Source of the DNA: a virus
IMG/VR virus record: IMGVR_UViG_3300005663_000106
Coordinates: 1-40,345 of that record
Length of the DNA stretch: 40,345 nt
Direction: 5' to 3' (one strand)
The notes below the pieces were generated by a model. That model searched no databases. It saw only the letters and a list, made by a program, of their open reading frames with translations, and was not told the DNA's origin. Shown here one piece after another: positions 1-36,547 of the stretch. Made by a program: the position numbers and the translations under genes. Each line of letters opens with the position of its first letter. Position 1 is the first letter of the stretch.

Positions 1-321
1 CAGGGAGAGGCGGTGGTCTGGGTCTGTTATCTGGACGGCGATGAACTGCCTAAACCCCGTCTTGATCGTCTCGATCTCCTTGAGCTTCTCGCCGACTCTA
101 AACCTTTCCGTGTCCAGCAGCCGACTCATTTGGTCAAGTGAGATTTTCGCGCGCTTAACCTCAAGGGTGGCGGAGTTAATCTCGGTCTTTGCCTCGCGTA
201 ACTTCTGCTCCGCCGTCCACCTGCCCTTTTGCTCGGCGAGGCGGAGTTCTGTTATGCGGACAAGCTCCTTCTTCAACTCGGCGATCTTCGCTTTCATCTT
301 CTTGATGGCGCTGGCTGTCAT
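1..321 (-). CDS. Coiled-coil protein, C-terminus beyond left edge
   Basis: The frame is open for 107 codons from ATG at 321 to the window edge, so only the N-terminal part is seen. The sequence alternates Lys/Arg and Glu with regularly spaced Leu, Ile and Ala (for example MTASAIKKMKAKIAELKKEL), which suggests one long coiled coil with no membrane segment or Cys. The start overlaps the stop of the upstream gene in an ATGA, so the two are translationally coupled. I do not recognise a family. It belongs to the string of small leftward genes at this end. Confidence 0.75.
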   Translation of the reverse strand, partial: MTASAIKKMKAKIAELKKELVRITELRLAEQKGRWTAEQKLREAKTEINSATLEVKRAKISLDQMSRLLDTERFRVGEKLKEIETIKTGFRQFIAVQITDPDHRLSL

Positions 322-4867: not shown

Positions 4868-5032
4868 AGCGGGAGGCAGGATTTGAACCTGCAAGTTCTG
4901 CCACGTCTGACATTGCTCCTGTGAAGAGGAATCGAACCTCGTCTCCGAGTTCGCAGTAGATCACACCACGCAATCTCGGCGTCTTTCCGTTAGACGATAA
5001 CTCAGGGCGTCTACCAATTCCGCCACTCCCGC
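4868..5032 (-). tRNA. tRNA-Leu-like gene interrupted by about 85-90 nt
   Basis: The outer parts make a convincing tRNA. A 7-bp acceptor stem pairs GCGGGAG (5032-5026) with CTCCCGC (4875-4869), the D-arm GCGGAATTGGTAGACGC is of leucine type, and a perfect 5-bp T-arm GCAGG-TTCAAAT-CCTGC sits next to the 3' acceptor strand. The total is 165 nt instead of about 85. Between the D-arm and the 3' half lies a second tRNA-like sequence. An anticodon cannot be assigned with confidence; CAG within GTCAGAC near 4907-4901 is one possibility. No CCA is encoded. It may be a split, permuted or decayed gene. Confidence 0.5.
4917..5006 (-). tRNA. Second tRNA-like sequence nested inside the first
   Basis: Ninety bases inside the outer tRNA show a 4-bp D-stem CGTC/GACG, a perfect 5-bp stem CCGAG/CTCGG in the anticodon-stem position, and a T-arm GAGG-TTCGATT-CCTC. 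The acceptor strands CCTGAGT and TCACAGG pair at only five of seven positions. The anticodon loop is 25 nt rather than 7, so an 18-nt expansion would have to be removed or the sequence is a remnant. Identity cannot be read. Low confidence that it makes a working tRNA. Confidence 0.35.
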
Positions 5033-5246: not shown

Positions 5247-6455
5247 TCATAATACCAATTCGCCAGAGGGGTCGTCAGGACGGGGCGTAGTTGTGGTGTT
5301 CCCTGTCGGCTCCGACCCCTCCGGCTTCTTGGGCTTCGGTTGCTTGAAATATCCGCACGTCATCTTAAACTGCACATACGTCAGCTTCTTGACCTGCCGA
5401 CTGCCGTAAGTTACCTTTATCCAGTCCTTCACGTCCGTCTCCCAGTCCCACCCGTTGTCGTGGGCAATCCGCTGGAGGTAGTTGACGTGGGCGGTATGTA
5501 CCTTGCCGTCCTCGCTGGGCGGCGGGTCATCGCCGAATACCTCCTCGTGGAAGCCGCTAAGGTCGTCGTCCTGCTTGGCAGGTGGGCTGTGGAGTGCCTT
5601 GCGAGCGACGAGGAGGCGTTCAAACTCCTGCTGCTGTGTTGAGGTATACCGTCCCTTGCCCGCATTGTTCCACCACGTTTCGATTACAGCAATCTTCTCG
5701 AGTCCGTCGGCATTCTCTAGCTTCTCTACAAGCTCTTCAAACCCTCCGCCTGTCTTTGGCTTTTCGAAAGGTTCAGCACCATCAGAGAGCCACGCATTCA
5801 GAATGTCGGCAACGTCCTTCCCTGCCTTGTTAAATATCTGACCGTCAAGACCCCTACAGCGCGTCTTGCTGACGACGAAGTTGTGTTCCAAGTCGAGGTC
5901 AGCCACAACGTCGAACTCGTACTCCATCCCGTCTCTTTGAACCGGTGCCATTCCCACCTTGCGGGGGAACATCTTGCCTCTCTCGTTTTTCTCCAACACG
6001 TATTCCGTCTTGGTGCGCATTGCGGCGAAGATGTGCATACTGCTCCCAATCATAGCATCAATCATGGCATTATGAAGCGGGGTCACTTCACGCCAAGCTG
6101 CGAACTTGTTGCCCGAAGATCGCACAGCCGCCTTATCAACAAGCTCCAATGCACCGTCCTTACCCATCCAAGCGTGAGAGAGGCTGTCGATGATACAGAT
6201 GTCAAACCCTTCCCTTTCTGCATCCTTGATGGCATTGATATAATTCTGCGGGCTGAAAGTCTCCAACTCCAGGACGCTGAAGTCAAACTCATCGGAGTAC
6301 TTACTGGCACTCCCCCTCTCTGTGTCGATGAAGGCTATCTTGCCGCCCAGTGCTGTGGCTATCTTCAGGGCGGTGTAGGTTTTGCCTGACCCGCTTGGGC
6401 CGGACATGGCAACCCTCGCCCTCGACTTCTTCTTGGTCGCTTTCTCGAATGTCAT
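5247..6455 (-). CDS. P-loop ATPase, phage recombination type (AAA_24/RecA-like)
   Basis: 402 residues. The Walker A motif GPSGSGKT is at 19-26, Walker B is near 90-96 (ICIIDSLSHAW), and a conserved RTKTEY segment follows. The second half is a low-complexity, acidic linker and a C-terminal helical region. This family of phage RecA-fold ATPases is found beside Gp157 and single-strand annealing genes and is thought to help recombination-dependent replication. The neighbouring Gp157-family gene, joined by TAATG, supports that. No annealing protein is visible here, so the role is inferred. Confidence 0.8.
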   Translation of the reverse strand: MTFEKATKKKSRARVAMSGPSGSGKTYTALKIATALGGKIAFIDTERGSASKYSDEFDFSVLELETFSPQNYINAIKDAEREGFDICIIDSLSHAWMGKDGALELVDKAAVRSSGNKFAAWREVTPLHNAMIDAMIGSSMHIFAAMRTKTEYVLEKNERGKMFPRKVGMAPVQRDGMEYEFDVVADLDLEHNFVVSKTRCRGLDGQIFNKAGKDVADILNAWLSDGAEPFEKPKTGGGFEELVEKLENADGLEKIAVIETWWNNAGKGRYTSTQQQEFERLLVARKALHSPPAKQDDDLSGFHEEVFGDDPPPSEDGKVHTAHVNYLQRIAHDNGWDWETDVKDWIKVTYGSRQVKKLTYVQFKMTCGYFKQPKPKKPEGSEPTGNTTTTPRPDDPSGELVL

Positions 6456-6955: not shown

Positions 6956-7107
6956 TACTCTTCCTCCCTTTCGTTCGGCGGTCTGCCGCATTTCTGGCAC
7001 TCCAGGCGCAAGTCAAAATCAGGAAAGCTGCACTCGCAGTAGTTCTCGTCCCTGTCCTCCCGCTCCCGCTCGTCGAGAGCCTCCTGCTCAAGGTCGTCGC
7101 TACGCAT
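6955..7107 (-). CDS. Small acidic zinc-ribbon-like protein (50 aa)
   Basis: ATG 7105-7107 starts a 50-codon frame that overlaps the alanine-rich gene before it and ends as TAATG on the Gp157 start. The product is very acidic (a run of Asp, Glu and Arg in residues 4-22), then has CEC near 24-26 and CQKC near 37-40, a four-Cys metal site. It fills exactly the space between its neighbours, which supports it as real. Function unknown. Confidence 0.7.
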   Translation of the reverse strand: MRSDDLEQEALDEREREDRDENYCECSFPDFDLRLECQKCGRPPNEREEE

Positions 7108-7621
7108 CGGCAGGCTCCTCGCTTGCGACCGGCACCTTCGGGATAAACTCCCTCACTATGTCAGCCATTTCCTTGAGAGACCCCGCCGACGCCGCCGCCC
7201 ACGCCGACTCCGCCGCCCCCGCCGACTCCGCCGCCGCCGCCGCCGCCGCCGACGCCGCCGCCCACGCCGCCGCCCACGCCGCCGCCCACGCCGCCCACGC
7301 CGCCACCGCCGACGCCGCCGCCCACGCCGCCACCCGTTCCTCTTCGGTAGCTTCACCCCTTGCGAAACGCTCAGCGGTTTCGATAGCCCTTAGCGGCCGA
7401 TCCTCACCCTCTGGCACGTACTTCAACGCCGTCCTCGCACAGCCGCAAGCGGCAAGGCGCATCTCTGGTGTGAAGGTCTTAAATACTCTGGTACAATACC
7501 ACAGCATCCATTCGGCGTTCTCGCACTCGTCCCACGCCTTCTGACGGCTGCGATACTTCGCTGCCCAATCGACAGCTTCAGAACAAGCACCAAGCTCGTC
7601 CAGGTGTTTACATATGCTCAT
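7100..7621 (-). CDS. Alanine-rich repeat protein, left copy
   Basis: 173 residues in two parts. Residues 1-95 form a Cys/Trp-containing domain (CSEAVDWA, ECENAEWMLWYC, ACGCARTAL) followed by EGEDRPLRAIETAERFARGEA. Residues 96-150 are nearly all Ala with spaced Trp (AWAA units), and the end is KEMADIVREFIPKVP. This resembles widespread proteins annotated as putative immunity proteins in bacteria and phages, with no proven role. A near-identical copy sits at 35534-36103 on the other strand. The Ala codons here are almost all GCG/GCC. Confidence 0.8.
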   Translation of the reverse strand: MSICKHLDELGACSEAVDWAAKYRSRQKAWDECENAEWMLWYCTRVFKTFTPEMRLAACGCARTALKYVPEGEDRPLRAIETAERFARGEATEEERVAAWAAASAVAAWAAWAAAWAAAWAAASAAAAAAAESAGAAESAWAAASAGSLKEMADIVREFIPKVPVASEEPADA

Positions 7622-8016: not shown

Positions 8017-8385
8017 TCAGCCTCCTGCCTTGTCGATCTTGGTGAATTCCCAGCCGCCCGTCATAAGTTGAAGCTCCGATTGCGTAACCTTATAGGCGTT
8101 TCCGACCTCTATTAGAGGTCTGCGCGGCTGTCCATCTTTGAGCGAGATTAAACAACAGTTATCAGGGGCAACCTGAGCGAGGATGTATTCTTCTCCCTCG
8201 TCCGTATACCGATCCCCCAACCTGTGAACCGGCTCGGCGGGAGGTTCGGGTTCCTGCTGGAGTTTCTTGACTCCGTCGAGAGCCTCAAGGAGACGCTCTC
8301 GCCCCGAGTCGAAGTCACAGCGAGCCTGCCTTATGTGAGCAAGGGCAGCTTCGATCTTGTCCCCCACTGTCAGTAAATCTGCCAT
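8017..8385 (-). CDS. Hypothetical 122-aa protein, first gene after structured leader
   Basis: The N-terminal 45 residues are helical (an AALAHIRQARCDFDSGRERL segment) and the rest is beta-like (GDRYTDEGEEYILAQV, NAYKVTQSELQLM). Start is ATG 8383-8385 with GGAGG at 8395-8391. It is the first gene behind the promoter and interleaved-repeat leader at 8399-8517, so it is the most likely target or source of any control acting there. Not recognised. Confidence 0.65.
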   Translation of the reverse strand: MADLLTVGDKIEAALAHIRQARCDFDSGRERLLEALDGVKKLQQEPEPPAEPVHRLGDRYTDEGEEYILAQVAPDNCCLISLKDGQPRRPLIEVGNAYKVTQSELQLMTGGWEFTKIDKAGG

Positions 8386-8398
8386 TTCATCCTCCGTA

Positions 8399-8481
8399 TG
8401 AGACGAGAAATCCCCGCAAGGTGGTGCGAACCGACCGGTGCAGGGATTTCCGTCTCAATTTCGATTTGTGGCCGGTTCGCA
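8399..8481 (-). ncRNA. Structured 5' leader with two interleaved inverted repeats
   Basis: In the leftward RNA the order is B (8481-8470), A (8457-8439), B' (8436-8425), A' (8418-8399). B pairs B' over 12 bp and A pairs A' over 19 bp with one bulged base. The only imperfect pair in each stem is a G-U wobble when read leftward, but would be A-C if read rightward, which supports an RNA on the minus strand. The order B-A-B'-A' allows a pseudoknot or two alternative hairpins. It fills the leader from the predicted start site to just before the ribosome site of the 122-aa gene. Confidence 0.65.
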
Positions 8482-8488
8482 TACAGGA

Positions 8489-8517
8489 AATATATATGCT
8501 GGAGAGGCCAATGTCAA
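8489..8517 (-). promoter_or_regulatory. Sigma70-like promoter (TTGACA-17-TATATT)
   Basis: Leftward TTGACA (8517-8512) and TATATT (8494-8489) are separated by exactly 17 bases. The predicted start is near 8482, directly at the first base of the structured leader. It would drive the early-type genes from 8385 leftward. The same hexamer pair and spacing recur at 32460-32488 and 36519-36547. Confidence 0.8.
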
Positions 8518-8576
8518 GAGAAATCGTCAAGCGGTGAAAAATAAGTTGGCGGGGAGAGCGTAAGTGGCGAGGTGGG

Positions 8577-24140: not shown

Positions 24141-25181
24141 TTAGCTTTCGGCTATGTTTTTGTAAGCGCCCTGAAGCCGCGGATTGTCACAATACAGGAT
24201 GCACTGATTGACCAGATACCGGCTCTTCGCCATCTGATTGTGAGGCTCGCGCCAGTCTGTCAGATGGAACCAGCCGTTTTCACGTCCCACGATCCCGAGG
24301 GTTCGCCGCTTGCCGATGCCCTTCTGGTTCACGAAGAAAATATGCTTCGCCGGGCAATAGCTGTCCCAGTAGATCTCAGCACCGTGATAGCGCAGACGGG
24401 TGAAGCCGATGTCGCCGATGTCTTCGCCTGTGTACCGCTGTTGATGCCGGATCGCGTCTTCGATGAAACCCCAGATCGTCTGGGTGGTGAGGATGTGAGT
24501 GGGCTGAGTGCCTGCGGCTGAACAGTTGTTCATGCCGCTACGCAACAGCTTCAGGATGTGGTTGGCATGGGTCGGATCGGTCGTGGTCGCAACCGAATAG
24601 GCGGTTGTGTTGTCAAAGCCGGGATCCCACCAGGGGTAACCGGTCGAGTCGATGCCCCACCAGGTGCGGTCGTCGTCGCACAGGTTACGTAATCCGTGCA
24701 GACCCTTCAACTGCATTCCCGTGCGCGAGGCGGCGGAATTGTAGATGCCGGTCGCCATCAGGTCGAGCATATCGGCAACCATTCCGTCCATATCTGCCGT
24801 CAGCTTGTTGACGACGTACTCTTTGCCGCGTGCAGCAAGCTCTTCGTCCCAGTTCCAGGAAAGTCCGACGTAGTAGTCGATCATTTCCTGAAGCGCGGCG
24901 TCGTACTTGCGATTGGGGTCGGCGTCCAGTATGTCGTAACCGGCAAACGATCCCCTCGCGGTTGCGCGAGTGTGCCGGAGAGTTCTGCGGACTTTCTTCC
25001 CGCCCATCAGAAGTTCACTCTTTGTCCGGGGGATCTGGCTGCCGGTCTCGGTCTCGGTACGACCGGACGAGAGAAAGAGACTCAAGCCCGGTGATACGTC
25101 ACCAATCTGATCGGCAACCTTGTCCGGAATGACGTGATCGTTCATGAAGCCGAGAAGGTCGGTTCCGAATTGATAAGCCAA
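24141..25181 (-). CDS. Major capsid protein
   Basis: 346 residues with an N-terminal region (MAYQFGTDLLGFMNDH), a basic alpha-helix (KKVRRTLRHTRATARGS), a long central helix around DMDGMVADMLDLMATGIYN, and beta-rich ends, matching HK97-like capsids of podovirus type by size and location after the scaffold. The only start with a ribosome site is TTG 25179-25181, six bases after AAAGGAG; the next in-frame Met is at residue 12. The site is buried in a 13-bp stem (25182-25241). A TTG start for a capsid gene is unusual. Confidence 0.85.
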   Translation of the reverse strand: MAYQFGTDLLGFMNDHVIPDKVADQIGDVSPGLSLFLSSGRTETETGSQIPRTKSELLMGGKKVRRTLRHTRATARGSFAGYDILDADPNRKYDAALQEMIDYYVGLSWNWDEELAARGKEYVVNKLTADMDGMVADMLDLMATGIYNSAASRTGMQLKGLHGLRNLCDDDRTWWGIDSTGYPWWDPGFDNTTAYSVATTTDPTHANHILKLLRSGMNNCSAAGTQPTHILTTQTIWGFIEDAIRHQQRYTGEDIGDIGFTRLRYHGAEIYWDSYCPAKHIFFVNQKGIGKRRTLGIVGRENGWFHLTDWREPHNQMAKSRYLVNQCILYCDNPRLQGAYKNIAES

Positions 25182-25241
25182 GTTATTCTCCTTTCAAGCC
25201 CCACCTCTCCCGTCTCCGTCAGTTACTCAAAGGAGAATAAC
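25182..25241 (-). promoter_or_regulatory. Hairpin masking the capsid ribosome site
   Basis: GTTATTCTCCTTT (25182-25194, + strand) and AAAGGAGAATAAC (25229-25241) are perfect inverted repeats of 13 bases with a 34-base loop. In the leftward mRNA the second arm contains the whole ribosome site and spacer of the capsid gene. The scaffold stop (25252) lies 10 bases upstream of the first arm, so ribosomes ending scaffold translation could open the stem and couple the two products. The stem is not followed by a U-run, so it is not a terminator. Confidence 0.65.
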
Positions 25242-25251
25242 GACTCAGAGG

Positions 25252-25971
25252 TCAGGAGGATTGGAGCTCTTCGTATTTTTTGAACTCTGCGGCGGTGTCG
25301 GCGCTGGAGTCGAATTTGAACCCCTTGCCGCCTTTGCCGCCAGCAGCACCTTTTGCCCCTTCGGTCACTACCACACGCTTTCTCGTGACGGGATCCACCG
25401 CGAACTTTTCGGGGTGAATGCCCTTGAACATTTCAAAGGCGTGCTCGACATTGCCGATCTTTCTCTTCTCGGCCATTTCAAGGATTTCGCCTTCGTTCTT
25501 CGCAAAATCTTCGTTCGCGCGAAGAGCGGCGAGTTGCTGATCGAGCCTAAAGTCGGCAATTTCCTCTTCGAGGGCTTTGAACTTCTCGTCATTTTCGCCG
25601 CCTTCAGCCGGTCTGTTACGACCGGCGTGGCCAACTATCAGATCAAATTCCCTTTTTGCCGCATCGGGGTCGGTCTGCATGGTCTTCAGCAGACCATCAA
25701 AGACCTTTACCCCGGCAAGGGCTTTGTCGAGTTCCTTCTCTTTCTCTGCGACTGCGGTGGTTTTGGTGGTGTAATCAGCCTGACGCATTTGACCGTCACG
25801 CATAGCGATTACCTCCGCCTCGGAGTATTCCTTGCCGTCAACCGTAAACTTGACGGGTTCGGGGTCTCCCCCTCCTCCGCCGGGATCCGGGTCAGGTGCT
25901 GGATCTCCACCACCGCCATCGCCTTCAGGTGCGCGTAGCAACCGGACGAGGCTATTGCTGTAAATGGACAT
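25252..25971 (-). CDS. Capsid scaffold protein
   Basis: 239 residues. The N-terminus has a Gly/Asp/Pro-rich acidic stretch (about 20-40), then FTVDGKEYSEAEV, a motif frequent in phage scaffolds, and a long charged coiled coil ending in a Gly/Lys-rich tail and EFKKYEELQSS. Scaffolds guide procapsid assembly through the C-terminus. The true start is ATG 25969-25971 directly behind AGGAGGTTCC; the frame to 25986 would include the site. Lies directly upstream of the capsid gene, as usual. Confidence 0.85.
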   Translation of the reverse strand: MSIYSNSLVRLLRAPEGDGGGGDPAPDPDPGGGGGDPEPVKFTVDGKEYSEAEVIAMRDGQMRQADYTTKTTAVAEKEKELDKALAGVKVFDGLLKTMQTDPDAAKREFDLIVGHAGRNRPAEGGENDEKFKALEEEIADFRLDQQLAALRANEDFAKNEGEILEMAEKRKIGNVEHAFEMFKGIHPEKFAVDPVTRKRVVVTEGAKGAAGGKGGKGFKFDSSADTAAEFKKYEELQSS

Positions 25972-33881: not shown

Positions 33882-34232
33882 TCACCTTGTCCTCGCTGGT
33901 TTGTGCGTTTCCACCCTCCGGCTTTCGCCTGGGTGCTTCTTCAGGTTTACTGTCATCCTATCGATCCTGGCGCGTTGCTGTGTTCTCTGTGTGGATTCTT
34001 CAGCGTCCGGCTCCAGCAGGTCGCGGCGGCTATCGAATGCCCTCCAGAGGGTGAACTTCCGCCCGTCTATGCTTCCGGTACGATATACAGCGTAGTCGAT
34101 CCTGCGCTCGTCGCAGTGGTCCTTGACGCTTTGCAGGTCGGCTATGCTTAGGGCTTTACTCACTTGGATTGGGTAGGGCGGAAGATCGTCCAGGGTTATC
34201 TTTACTGCTGGGCTGGGCTTTGCTCTTGTCAC
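33882..34232 (-). CDS. Hypothetical 116-aa protein
   Basis: GTG 34230-34232 with AGAGGTGAG upstream. N-terminal part is mixed (AVKITLDDLPPYPIQV, ALSIADLQSVKDHCDERR), the rest is basic and polar, ending in Arg/Thr/Lys. It is divergent from the rightward promoter at 34271. Could be a small DNA-binding regulator, but no helix-turn-helix is evident. Not recognised. Confidence 0.5.
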   Translation of the reverse strand: MTRAKPSPAVKITLDDLPPYPIQVSKALSIADLQSVKDHCDERRIDYAVYRTGSIDGRKFTLWRAFDSRRDLLEPDAEESTQRTQQRARIDRMTVNLKKHPGESRRVETHKPARTR

Positions 34233-34270
34233 TACTCACCTCTTTTATTTTCCTGTATGTACAATTTCTC

Positions 34271-34299
34271 TTGCATTCGGGATATTCTGTGCTTATCTT
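34271..34299 (+). promoter_or_regulatory. Rightward sigma70-like promoter (TTGCAT-17-TATCTT)
   Basis: TTGCAT (34271-34276), 17 bases, TATCTT (34294-34299). The predicted start, about 34306-34307, is the first base of the structured leader that follows. It would drive the six-gene rightward operon. Confidence 0.62.
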
Positions 34300-34306
34300 A
34301 GCGGTT

Positions 34307-34400
34307 GAGACATCACACGACGGCGCAGGCTTTTTCACGTTTTGGAAGCCCATCCGGTTTTATTGGCTTGCGCCAGTGATGTCTCCCCGGTTGGGCTTTC
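34307..34400 (+). ncRNA. Structured leader of the rightward operon, interleaved repeats
   Basis: Stem A pairs GAGACATCAC (34307-34316) plus GGCGCAGGC (34322-34330) with GCTTGCGCC (34366-34374) plus GTGATGTCTC (34376-34385): 19 bp with one G-U. Stem C pairs 34344-34357 with 34387-34400: 14 positions, one mismatch, one G-U. The 5' arm of C lies in the loop of A, and its 3' arm follows A directly, so a pseudoknot or two alternative folds are possible. It ends six bases before CAGGGAG of the first gene. The layout copies that of the leftward leader at 8399-8481. Confidence 0.62.
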
Positions 34401-34419
34401 TTTATCCAGGGAGTTGACA

Positions 34420-34599
34420 ATGGAATCAGTACTTGACAGTTGGCAAGCCGGTCTCATCACTGACAGGGAATGCACTGACAGCCTTGAATGCCTGAAGGTG
34501 CGAGGTGCGATTGAAAGTGATCCCACCACAGGCAGGAAATACTTCCTGGGCTATGACTACGACGCCCAGGAATGGATCGACACAAGGCTAACCGTCTAA
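34420..34599 (+). CDS. Hypothetical 59-aa protein, first gene of the rightward operon
   Basis: Start ATG 34420-34422 behind CAGGGAG with a six-base spacer TTGACA. Contains Trp/Cys and charged residues (DSWQAGLITDRECTDSLECL, GRKYFLGYDYDAQEWID). Possibly a small regulator or anti-host factor, as early phage genes under such control often are; no family recognised. Confidence 0.7.
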   Translation: MESVLDSWQAGLITDRECTDSLECLKVRGAIESDPTTGRKYFLGYDYDAQEWIDTRLTV

Positions 34600-34629
34600 C
34601 CGCCTTCGGGCAAACACAGGGAGTTGACG

Positions 34630-34878
34630 ATGGAAATAACTGACATAGACAATCCGCCTAAGCGTCACAAATACAAGGTCAAGGCATTCATGGTAACCCG
34701 CCGAGAGGAAACGCCCGACGGGTGGAGGCTTGAGGGCGGATATTGCGGGGAATGTAAGCAGGACTTGTCAAGATATTACAATCTGATGAGAGACGGTTCG
34801 GGTCGACGGCGTTGGAGTAAGCTACACGAAATTGGCAGTAAGACAAACTACTACCACACCACCAAAACAGGGAGTTGA
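34630..34878 (+). CDS. Small CxxC protein (82 aa)
   Basis: Start ATG 34630-34632 with the same CAGGGAGTTGAC block upstream. A basic N-terminal region (PKRHKYKVKAFMVTRREE) precedes CGEC near 41 and a Trp/Arg-rich C-terminus. Its stop lies inside the ribosome block of the next gene, which couples them. Nucleic-acid binding is possible. Confidence 0.7.
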   Translation: MEITDIDNPPKRHKYKVKAFMVTRREETPDGWRLEGGYCGECKQDLSRYYNLMRDGSGRRRWSKLHEIGSKTNYYHTTKTGS

Positions 34879-34880
34879 CA

Positions 34881-35174
34881 ATGAAAAGCGATCTACAGGA
34901 AATCCTCAACGACGCGCTCGACGAACTCAAGGAGCGGATGAAGGACTACCCAGACGAGGACGCCGACGACGTTGTCTCTGAGATAGCCGACAGCAGCGTC
35001 CCGGTCTATTATTCCGACCTGCTTAAACTTGCCTCGGGCTGCAATGACCTCGCAACCGCCGAGCCTGAATGCGGCCCGGCTTTCGACGGCAAACCGACAC
35101 CGGTGAACATAATCGCGGCCAACGTATACGAGGCGGTAGACCAGCACCTCCGCAATTACCTCTCGGCCATTTGA
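34881..35174 (+). CDS. Hypothetical acidic 97-aa protein
   Basis: Start ATG 34881-34883 after CAGGGAGTTGACA. Acidic helices (LQEILNDALDELKERMKDYP), Asp-rich, two Cys (CNDLATAEPEC), and an amphipathic C-terminus (NVYEAVDQHLRNYLSAI). Acidic phage proteins often mimic DNA or bind host factors; this is not shown here. No family recognised. Confidence 0.7.
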   Translation: MKSDLQEILNDALDELKERMKDYPDEDADDVVSEIADSSVPVYYSDLLKLASGCNDLATAEPECGPAFDGKPTPVNIIAANVYEAVDQHLRNYLSAI

Positions 35175-35206
35175 TACCGCAGAAGAGGCAGAGTGTGAAG
35201 CCTAAC

Positions 35207-35302
35207 CTCCCCTCGTGGGAGTCGGCTGCGTCCAGCGACAGCGGATGAGAGCCCGCTCCGGTGAGCATCACACCGGGCAGCCACAAGGCCGGAAACACCG
35301 GC
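35207..35302 (+). ncRNA. Candidate three-way-junction RNA in the rightward operon
   Basis: Four stems sit end to end. CTCCC/GGGAG (35207-35221). P1 GGCTGC/GCAGCC (35224-35229, 35277-35282) encloses P2 AGCGG/CCGCT (35240-35244, 35253-35257) and P3 CCGGTG/CACCGG (35258-35263, 35271-35276), which abut without a linker. Then GCCGG/CCGGC (35288-35292, 35298-35302). P2, P3 and the return strand of P1 follow each other with no unpaired base, and a 10-base single strand (35230-35239) forms the rest of the junction. It ends eight bases before the CAGGGAG of the next gene. Confidence 0.45.
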
Positions 35303-35322
35303 AAGTAAACAGGGAGTACATC

Positions 35323-35499
35323 GTGAAACTATCGGAACACGAAAAAATGATCCAGCGAGCGATCAGAAAAGCCCTTAACTCAAGTCATCACATTTTTAGC
35401 TTTCGGAGGTTGGCTAAAACGCTCGCAGACACAGAGTCACTCAGGCAACGGGAAGAGGACATATTCTCCGCACTCACTCAAACGCTTAAATACAGATAA
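35323..35499 (+). CDS. Small basic helical protein (58 aa)
   Basis: Start GTG 35323-35325 after CAGGGAG and a six-base spacer, the same layout as its neighbours; the frame extends upstream through the folded RNA without a site. Helical and basic (EKMIQRAIRKALNSSHHIFS, FRRLAKTLADTESLRQREED). Possibly a nucleic-acid binder. Not recognised. Confidence 0.6.
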   Translation: MKLSEHEKMIQRAIRKALNSSHHIFSFRRLAKTLADTESLRQREEDIFSALTQTLKYR

Positions 35500-35533
35500 C
35501 CACCACGCCGCAAGGCATAACAGGGAGAGGAAA

Positions 35534-36103
35534 ATGAACATACGTAAACACTTGGACGAGCTTGGTGCTTGTTCTGAAGCTGTCGATTGGGCAACGAAGT
35601 ATCGCAGCCGTCAGAAGGCGTGGGACGAGTGCGAGAACGCCGAATGGATGCTGTGGTATTGTACCAGAGTATTTAAGACCTTCACACCAGAGATGCGCCT
35701 TGCCGCTTGCGGCTGTGCGAGGACGGCGTTGAAGTACGTGCCAGAGGGTGAGGATCGGCCGCTAAGGGCTATCGAAACCGCTGAGCGTTTCGCAAGGGGT
35801 GAAGCAACTGACGGGGAACGGGCTGCTGCTGCGTGGGATGCTGCTGCGGCTGCTACTGCGGCTGCTGCGGCGGATGCTGCGTGGGATGCTGCTGCGGCTG
35901 CTGCTGCGGCTGCTGCGGCGGATGCTGCGTGGGATGCTGCTGCGGCTGTTGCTGCGGCTGCTGCTGCGGCTGCTGCGGCGGATGCTGCGTGGGATGCTGC
36001 TGCGGCTGCTGCTGCGGCTGCTGCGGCGGATGCTGCTGCTAAGGAAATGGCCGACATCGTAAGGGAGCACATCCCGAAAGTGCCGCGAAGGAGAAAGCTA
36101 TGA
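35534..36103 (+). CDS. Alanine-rich repeat protein, right copy
   Basis: 189 residues. Residues 1-93 are almost identical to the left copy (7100-7621 on the other strand). Then come four units of AWDAAAAAAAAAAADA type (16, 16, 20 and 16 residues) instead of the AWAA repeats of the left copy, and the end KEMADIVREHIPKVP. At DNA level the first 270 or so bases differ at only about four positions, while the repeat uses GCT and GCG codons in a 48-base tandem unit. Start ATG 35534-35536 follows CAGGGAG. Confidence 0.8.
   Translation: MNIRKHLDELGACSEAVDWATKYRSRQKAWDECENAEWMLWYCTRVFKTFTPEMRLAACGCARTALKYVPEGEDRPLRAIETAERFARGEATDGERAAAAWDAAAAATAAAAADAAWDAAAAAAAAAAADAAWDAAAAVAAAAAAAAAADAAWDAAAAAAAAAAADAAAKEMADIVREHIPKVPRRRKL
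35831..36034 (+). repeat. 48-bp tandem repeat inside the alanine-rich gene
   Basis: Unit begins GCGTGGGATGCTGCTGCGGC and ends GCGGCGGATGCT; copies at 35831-35878, 35879-35926, 35927-35986 (60 bases, one 12-base gain) and 35987-36034. All keep the reading frame. The unit is prone to slippage in replication, so copy number may vary between relatives. Confidence 0.8.
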
Positions 36104-36330
36104 CCTCCCCAATGACCATCACCTTCGACCCCAGCGCAAAGCAGGGGCAGCGCATCACCAGCTACGCCGTTGAGTACATCGGCGATCAGGAGCGGCTTAA
36201 CGACGAGCCGATCCGGTTGTTCAACGTGGTGAGGGAGTTTTATGCGCCCTGGGGCTATCATTTTCCCGTCGGCGACACCATCGCCGAGGAAACGTGCAGG
36301 AGGGCAGGGATTCGGATGCCACCTGACTAA
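36100..36330 (+). CDS. Hypothetical 76-aa protein, last gene of the rightward operon
   Basis: Overlaps the alanine-rich gene by ATGA; AAGGAG upstream. Beta-type N-terminus (MTSPMTITFDPSAKQGQRIT), central VEYIGDQ, and aromatic WGYHFPVGDTI. No motif recognised. Followed by a 355-base gap that holds terminators and a leftward promoter. Confidence 0.6.
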   Translation: MTSPMTITFDPSAKQGQRITSYAVEYIGDQERLNDEPIRLFNVVREFYAPWGYHFPVGDTIAEETCRRAGIRMPPD

Positions 36331-36518: not shown

Positions 36519-36547
36519 AATATAATGTTTTATTCCCTAAAAGTCAA
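36519..36547 (-). promoter_or_regulatory. Leftward promoter with no sense gene (TTGACT-17-TATATT)
   Basis: TTGACT (36547-36542) and TATATT (36524-36519), spacer 17, matching the late promoter at 32460. Predicted start near 36512. Its RNA would run leftward into the 3' end of the rightward operon, so it is antisense to those genes. Confidence 0.6.

Follow-up and report, generated by a model that had tools for sequence, protein, structure and literature searches.

The leader of the single rightward gene block in the studied virus genome contains two interleaved stems ahead of the ribosome-binding (Shine-Dalgarno, SD) site of its first gene, and the same layout, built from different sequences, was found in the leader of a leftward operon of this genome and in at least two unrelated phages. 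The sequence-only reading had proposed an RNA-level leader design that recurs without sequence likeness. This proposal is supported by three lines of evidence: the interleaving exceeds that of shuffled sequences, the non-Watson-Crick pairs are almost all G·U in the mRNA sense, and the layout is present in the loci L004/L005 and L052. The design is rare yet recurrent and is not particular to the phage of the window, since it was found in L004/L005 and L052 but not in 80 unselected phage leaders.

The window is the whole IMG/VR virus record IMGVR_UViG_3300005663_000106 (40,345 nt, GC content 54%). It encodes a terminase and a T7-like portal. Most genes are directed leftward, the only rightward block being 34420–36330, and the leader of this block (further referred to as R) is located between divergent genes, leftward at 34232 and rightward at 34420. 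The acidic product of R3 is weakly similar to the anti-restriction DNA mimic ocr (phrog_2568, E = 1.8e-5; PF08684, E = 4.8e-4, under the Pfam cut-off); given this match, a role in takeover is probable for the rightward operon. The leftward operon with the second leader (further referred to as L) leads to a Gp157-like protein and a Sak4-like ATPase. An archaeal host, suggested by one weak match to a methanogen virus, was ruled out because the σ70 promoters are strong. The ribosome-site context CAGGGAGTTGACAATG is nearly identical at 34407–34425, at 34617–34635 and before 34881 (+), where it precedes R1, R2 and R3, respectively. Coordinates of the features are collected in Table 1.

Table 1. Features of the rightward (R) and leftward (L) leaders and of the adjacent genes in the window
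Feature	Position	Strand	Remarks
L stem B, 3' arm	8400..8418	-	pairs with 8439-8456
SD GGAGG of L1	8391..8395	-	L1 ATG at 8385
L stem A, 3' arm	8425..8436	-	pairs with 8470-8481
L stem B, 5' arm	8439..8456	-	interleaved; 18 bp, one bulge
L stem A, 5' arm	8470..8481	-	at +1
Motif TTTCCTGTATG, copy in L	8480..8490	-	exact match, these two places only
Leftward promoter TTGACA-N17-TATATT	8489..8517	-	best promoter score in the window
ACGATTTCTCTTG, copy holding shared ACRATTTCTCTTG	8515..8527	-	exact match, two places only
Motif TTTCCTGTATG, copy in R	34249..34259	+	exact match, these two places only
ACAATTTCTCTTG, contains shared ACRATTTCTCTTG	34261..34273	+	exact match, two places only
Candidate σ70 promoter TTGCAT-N17-TATCTT, weak	34271..34299	+	7/12 consensus bases
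P1 5' arm GAGACATCAC	34307..34316	+	first base = predicted +1; 10/10 Watson-Crick pairs with 34376-34385
P2 5' arm GGCGCAGGCT	34322..34331	+	above the 5x1 internal loop; 8 Watson-Crick + 2 G·U pairs
P3 5' arm GGAAGCCCATCCGG	34344..34357	+	inside the P1/P2 hairpin loop; 12 Watson-Crick + 1 G·U + 1 U·U
P2 3' arm GGCTTGCGCC	34365..34374	+	pairs with 34322-34331
P1 3' arm GTGATGTCTC	34376..34385	+	found by repeat finder
P3 3' arm CCGGTTGGGCTTTC	34387..34400	+	1 nt past the P1 3' arm
Alternative anti-SD arm GGCUUUCU	34394..34401	+	pairs with 34408-34415 in the nested fold; overlaps the P3 3' arm
SD AGGGAG of R1	34408..34413	+	unpaired probability 0.09 (nested), 0.68 (stems locked)
R1, first rightward gene, 59 aa	34420..34599	+	no family matched
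R3, acidic, 97 aa	34881..35174	+	weak match to ocr

Stems and promoters of the two leaders

The first stem of R had been described as 19 bp long. A long stem is indeed present, but it is made up of P1 and P2, whose 20 pairs are interrupted by a 5x1 internal loop. The second stem of 13–14 bp was found to be interleaved as claimed, with one arm of P3 in the P1/P2 loop and the other behind P1. Dinucleotide shuffling of the 113-nt leader never gave interleaved stems as strong as those of R, first in 2000 and then in 4000 shuffles; 11 of the 4000 reached a lower threshold. The interleaved stems of L were likewise matched by none of 4000 dinucleotide shuffles, and hence the interleaving in both leaders is unlikely to have arisen by chance. 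Rfam covariance models at the gathering cut-off gave no match at either leader, and at relaxed thresholds the best matches were at chance level. DNA and protein searches of phages, IMG/VR and bacterial genomes yielded no close relatives, and no relative of the R leader turned up in these collections.

A promoter with the 17-bp spacing that meets the stem had also been reported. The promoter boxes are there, but they are weak: their score of 7.9 is equalled or exceeded at more than 160 positions of the window. A scan of the window for at least 9 of 12 consensus bases missed this promoter, and an equally good one occurs at the matching offset at approximately 2% of intergenic positions. Because of this weakness, transcription start at the first base of the stem (position ~34307) is only plausible.

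The claim of a second leader with the same design on the opposite strand held: the stems of L (8481–8400, minus strand) are preceded by the highest-scoring promoter in the window. The pattern of this promoter is expected 0.04 times in the window and was found three times. The predicted leftward start, 8482, is one base ahead of stem A (8481). Thus, a stem close to the 5'-end is predicted in L, and in R it hinges on the weak promoter.

As noted earlier, the stems of R and L are not alike; matches between the two leaders are short, and none connects corresponding stems. Still, the promoter regions of R and L have in common two exact motifs, TTTCCTGTATG and ACRATTTCTCTTG, that occur nowhere else in the window, a connection overlooked in the sequence-only reading. 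Both motifs are outside the stems and their order differs between R and L. Each operon also contains one member of a pair of paralogues, 35534–36103 (+) and 7100–7621 (−), with 95% identity over the first 97 residues; at the DNA level, 314 bp with 95.5% identity are followed by diverging alanine/tryptophan-rich tails. Judging by this similarity, the pair is a recent duplicate. From the shared promoter motifs and the paralogous genes we read the two operons as akin in gene content, and their regulation at the DNA level may be related too.

Recurrence of the design

In total, 261 sequences (2.99 Mb) were scanned, including 41 ATPase-bearing viral loci and 80 bacterial loci. Candidates were retained if both interleaved helices had a pairing score of at least 24, a σ70-like promoter was located 4–10 nt upstream of stem A, an SD/start followed stem B, and the region was outside long reading frames and had GC content below 62%. 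The full design was found only in R, L, L004 (with its near copy L005) and L052. Control promoter offsets gave back only some of these loci, with weak promoters. L004/L005 are distantly related through the terminase, and L052 was retrieved via an ATPase; the leaders of L004 and L052 did not match any sequenced phage. The L004 promoter is TTGACA-17-TATAAA, and its +1 is the first base of the stem ATGGACAAGGT/GCCTTGTCCAT; the L052 promoter, TTGACT-17-TAATTT, leads to GCGCTTAGATAAC/GTTATCTAGGCGC. The 3' arms of the two stems (A' and B') are separated by 1 nt in R and L004, 0 nt in L052 and 6 nt in L. Common to these leaders are the predicted 5'-end at or next to a stem, B' beginning 0–6 nt after A', and the start codon just outside.

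The scheme had been called phage-specific, and the occurrence of the same layout in at least two unrelated phages (L004/L005 and L052) speaks against this. A general scheme of early operons is not supported either. The 80 unselected phage leaders, chosen only for a perfect promoter and an SD 85–115 nt downstream, had no excess of the interleaved design, which rules out a general phage rule, and the design was absent from three phages with related capsid or terminase. L005 reads into a replisome-organizer-like protein (O-like relatives), and the operons downstream of the L052 and L003 leaders encode replication-initiation or DnaD-like proteins. No support was obtained for a rule tied to replisome-organizer genes, as in the phages inspected such genes are in packed operons (gaps of ~10–60 nt).

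Several candidates were rejected. The interleaved pair of BUCT555, a phage with related capsid (L269, 37840–37938), was reached by 123 of 1000 shuffles. The candidate at window positions 165–246 is inside a leftward coding frame. L059 was left uncounted because its stem A is mostly a local palindrome. A search of the whole L052 phage for a second such leader yielded only one marginal promoterless candidate (L273, 12817–12981). L003 contains, between exonuclease-like and DnaD-like genes, a near-perfect H-type pseudoknot at 6200–6266 (+), formed by GGTTCCGCCGGT/ACCGGCGGAACC with TGACCCCCATTCT/AGAATGGGGATCA just ahead of an ATG; it has no promoter and may be coding, and thus was considered as a topological parallel only.

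Short reading frames were observed in three of these leaders. The AUG at the predicted +1 of L opens a basic frame of 31 codons, MRTGHKSKLRRKSLHRSVRTTLRGFLVSYGG (8482–8387, minus strand), that stops one base ahead of the L1 start codon. L004 likewise has an AUG at +1 (MDKVIVLNHQQKKQG), and L052 has a short frame VPLSHLTFHH with an SD in its loop.

Non-Watson-Crick pairs in the helices of R, L, L004 and L052 are G·U in the mRNA sense with the exception of one U·U in R, with the caveat that the stem search tolerated G·U but not A·C. In the same four leaders the pairing energy of the sense strand is at least as good as that of the antisense strand; stem B of L003 is an exception to this preference. 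Since both the wobble pairs and the pairing energy fit the mRNA strand, the observations favour an element acting as RNA.

Possible mechanisms

We tentatively interpret R as a 5'-terminal H-type pseudoknot that would stabilise the transcript end and open the SD of R1, a mechanism which we infer from the predicted folds and consider plausible, although still short of likely. The rightward mRNA would start at ~34307, and its first nucleotides would pair into the long P1/P2 stem, whose loop would in turn form P3 with the stretch just behind the stem. With a single nucleotide between the end of P1 and the beginning of P3, the 5'-end of the RNA would be buried between two helices. No single-stranded end would then be available for RppH or RNase E/J, so the transcript would be stabilised. 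Simultaneously, P3 would occupy the strand to which the SD of R1 is otherwise paired, and the pseudoknot would thereby leave the SD open.

Rough pseudoknot energies, estimated by hand with a penalty of 9.6 kcal/mol, are −53.0 for R (nested fold, −42.8) and −50.1 for L (nested fold, −39.5). The main structural doubt about the R pseudoknot is the 7-nt linker 34358–34364, which would have to cross the 20-bp stem and is sterically tight if P1, P2 and P3 are all formed; for this reason, some P2 pairs may have to open. In L the unpaired probability of the SD is 0.78 in the nested fold and 0.41 with the stems locked. A freeing switch as in R is thus not seen in L, and this counts against SD gating.

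The best common reading of R and L is, on the modelled folds, protection of the 5'-end. RppH of B. subtilis requires two or more unpaired nucleotides at the 5'-end, and mRNAs are known to be stabilised by 5'-terminal stem-loops (PMC3997798). On the other hand, a plain 5' hairpin would already stabilise the transcript, so this reading does not demand the interleaving. In ompA-type stabilisers, as predicted for R, a stem is located at the 5'-end of the transcript with the SD outside; those are simple hairpins, whereas the loop of R would also pair with the segment that follows the stem.

The bound-regulator explanation, under which R is a ligand- or protein-controlled translational operator, seems rather unlikely. 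Under this view, the pseudoknot would be bound or stabilised by a protein of the phage or the host, which might itself be encoded in the operon, and R1 would thereby be repressed or activated, in the way that T4 gp32 acts on its own mRNA. The predicted pseudoknot is indeed upstream of the SD, as in the gene 32 operator of T4/RB69 (PMC535899), and P3 and the SD-masking hairpin of R are mutually exclusive, which is the form of a switch. However, the stems of R and L have no common sequence and the first genes of the two operons differ, making one shared regulator unlikely, and no RNA-binding protein was recognisable among the R1–R6 products. The resemblance to the gene 32 operator is also limited: that pseudoknot is ~28 nt long, is bound by the product of the gene and is separated from the start by more than 40 nt of less structured RNA that contains UUAAA repeats (PMC535899), whereas the predicted pseudoknot of R spans ~94 nt, has no known binder, begins at the predicted +1 and has just 7 nt (TTTATCC, 34401–34407) between P3 and the SD.

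Two more structured leaders were compared with R and L. The putL and putR sites of HK022 are similar in that structured RNA leads two early operons of one phage; they differ in sharing sequence, which the R and L stems do not, and in forming two separate stem-loops that bind RNA polymerase, whereas the stems of R and L interlock (PMC9378689). The put RNA suppresses pausing and termination of RNA polymerase (PMC9378689). R also resembles the SAM-II and preQ1 riboswitches in having interleaved stems near the SD, but its stems are far longer, have no Rfam match, and would free the SD rather than mask it. The riboswitches of these two classes are pseudoknots that mask the SD.

Chance would mean that nothing sets P1/P2 apart from other 5' hairpins and that P3 arose accidentally. 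We regard this as quite improbable: the weak promoter of R and the chance origin of weaker interleaved pairs, as in BUCT555, are consistent with it, but the shuffling results for R and for L, the two cases within one 40-kb genome and the strong promoters that L and L004 have at precisely the required distance are not.

Processing by RNase III appears distinctly improbable as well. By analogy with the leader of lambda N, whose stem is cut by this enzyme, the two-turn P1/P2 stem would be cleaved once transcribed, so that the leader is trimmed and the SD becomes exposed. In both cases a long stem is located in an early leader ahead of the first gene, and the lengths in R (20 pairs with the 5x1 internal loop) and in L (18 pairs in stem B) agree with such a site. 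The lambda stem is, though, neither interleaved nor at +1; the stems of L004 and L052 make about one turn (10–13 bp), too short for a typical site, and the interleaving is left unexplained.

Finally, interleaved inverted repeats acting in double-stranded DNA as an operator or origin are very improbable: R does divide divergent genes, two exact motifs are common to both promoter regions and the leaders of L003, L004 and L052 adjoin replication genes, but the wobble pairs favour the mRNA strand, the stem sequences vary between loci and the shared motifs are outside the stems.

Bacterial mRNA 5'-ends are protected by simple hairpins or ribosomes. If the proposed mechanism is true, a 5'-sealing pseudoknot that sets ribosome access would be an extra, sequence-free way for a phage to keep chosen messages alive and translatable while it takes over the cell. 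One may further suppose a sequence-independent class of phage leaders, defined by stem A at +1 and B' 0–1 nt after A', in which the 5'-end stacked in the pseudoknot is a structural cap for selected operons, having arisen in or spread among several unrelated phages; we consider this generalisation unlikely. RNA family searches by sequence miss such leaders because they share no sequence, and the suggested search rule is a promoter, a start at stem A, an interleaved stem B and an SD.

Other sites in the window

A strong promoter, TTGACT-17-TATATT, is present at 36519–36547 on the minus strand. It faces leftward, towards the end of the rightward operon; no gene lies that way, and it perhaps drives an antisense or small RNA. 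The Rfam tRNA model matched positions 4868–5032 (minus strand) with 35.4 bits, and ARAGORN found no tRNA there; the match has an insertion of ~100 nt in the anticodon region, and this insertion is itself tRNA-like. In the capsid leader (25182–25269, minus strand), the major capsid gene (TTG start at 25181) has its SD and spacer included in a perfect 13-bp stem with the arms GTTATTCTCCTTT (25241–25229) and AAAGGAGAATAAC (25194–25182). Translational control of the capsid gene by this stem is possible. A further stem, interleaved with this one, extends into the end of the upstream gene.
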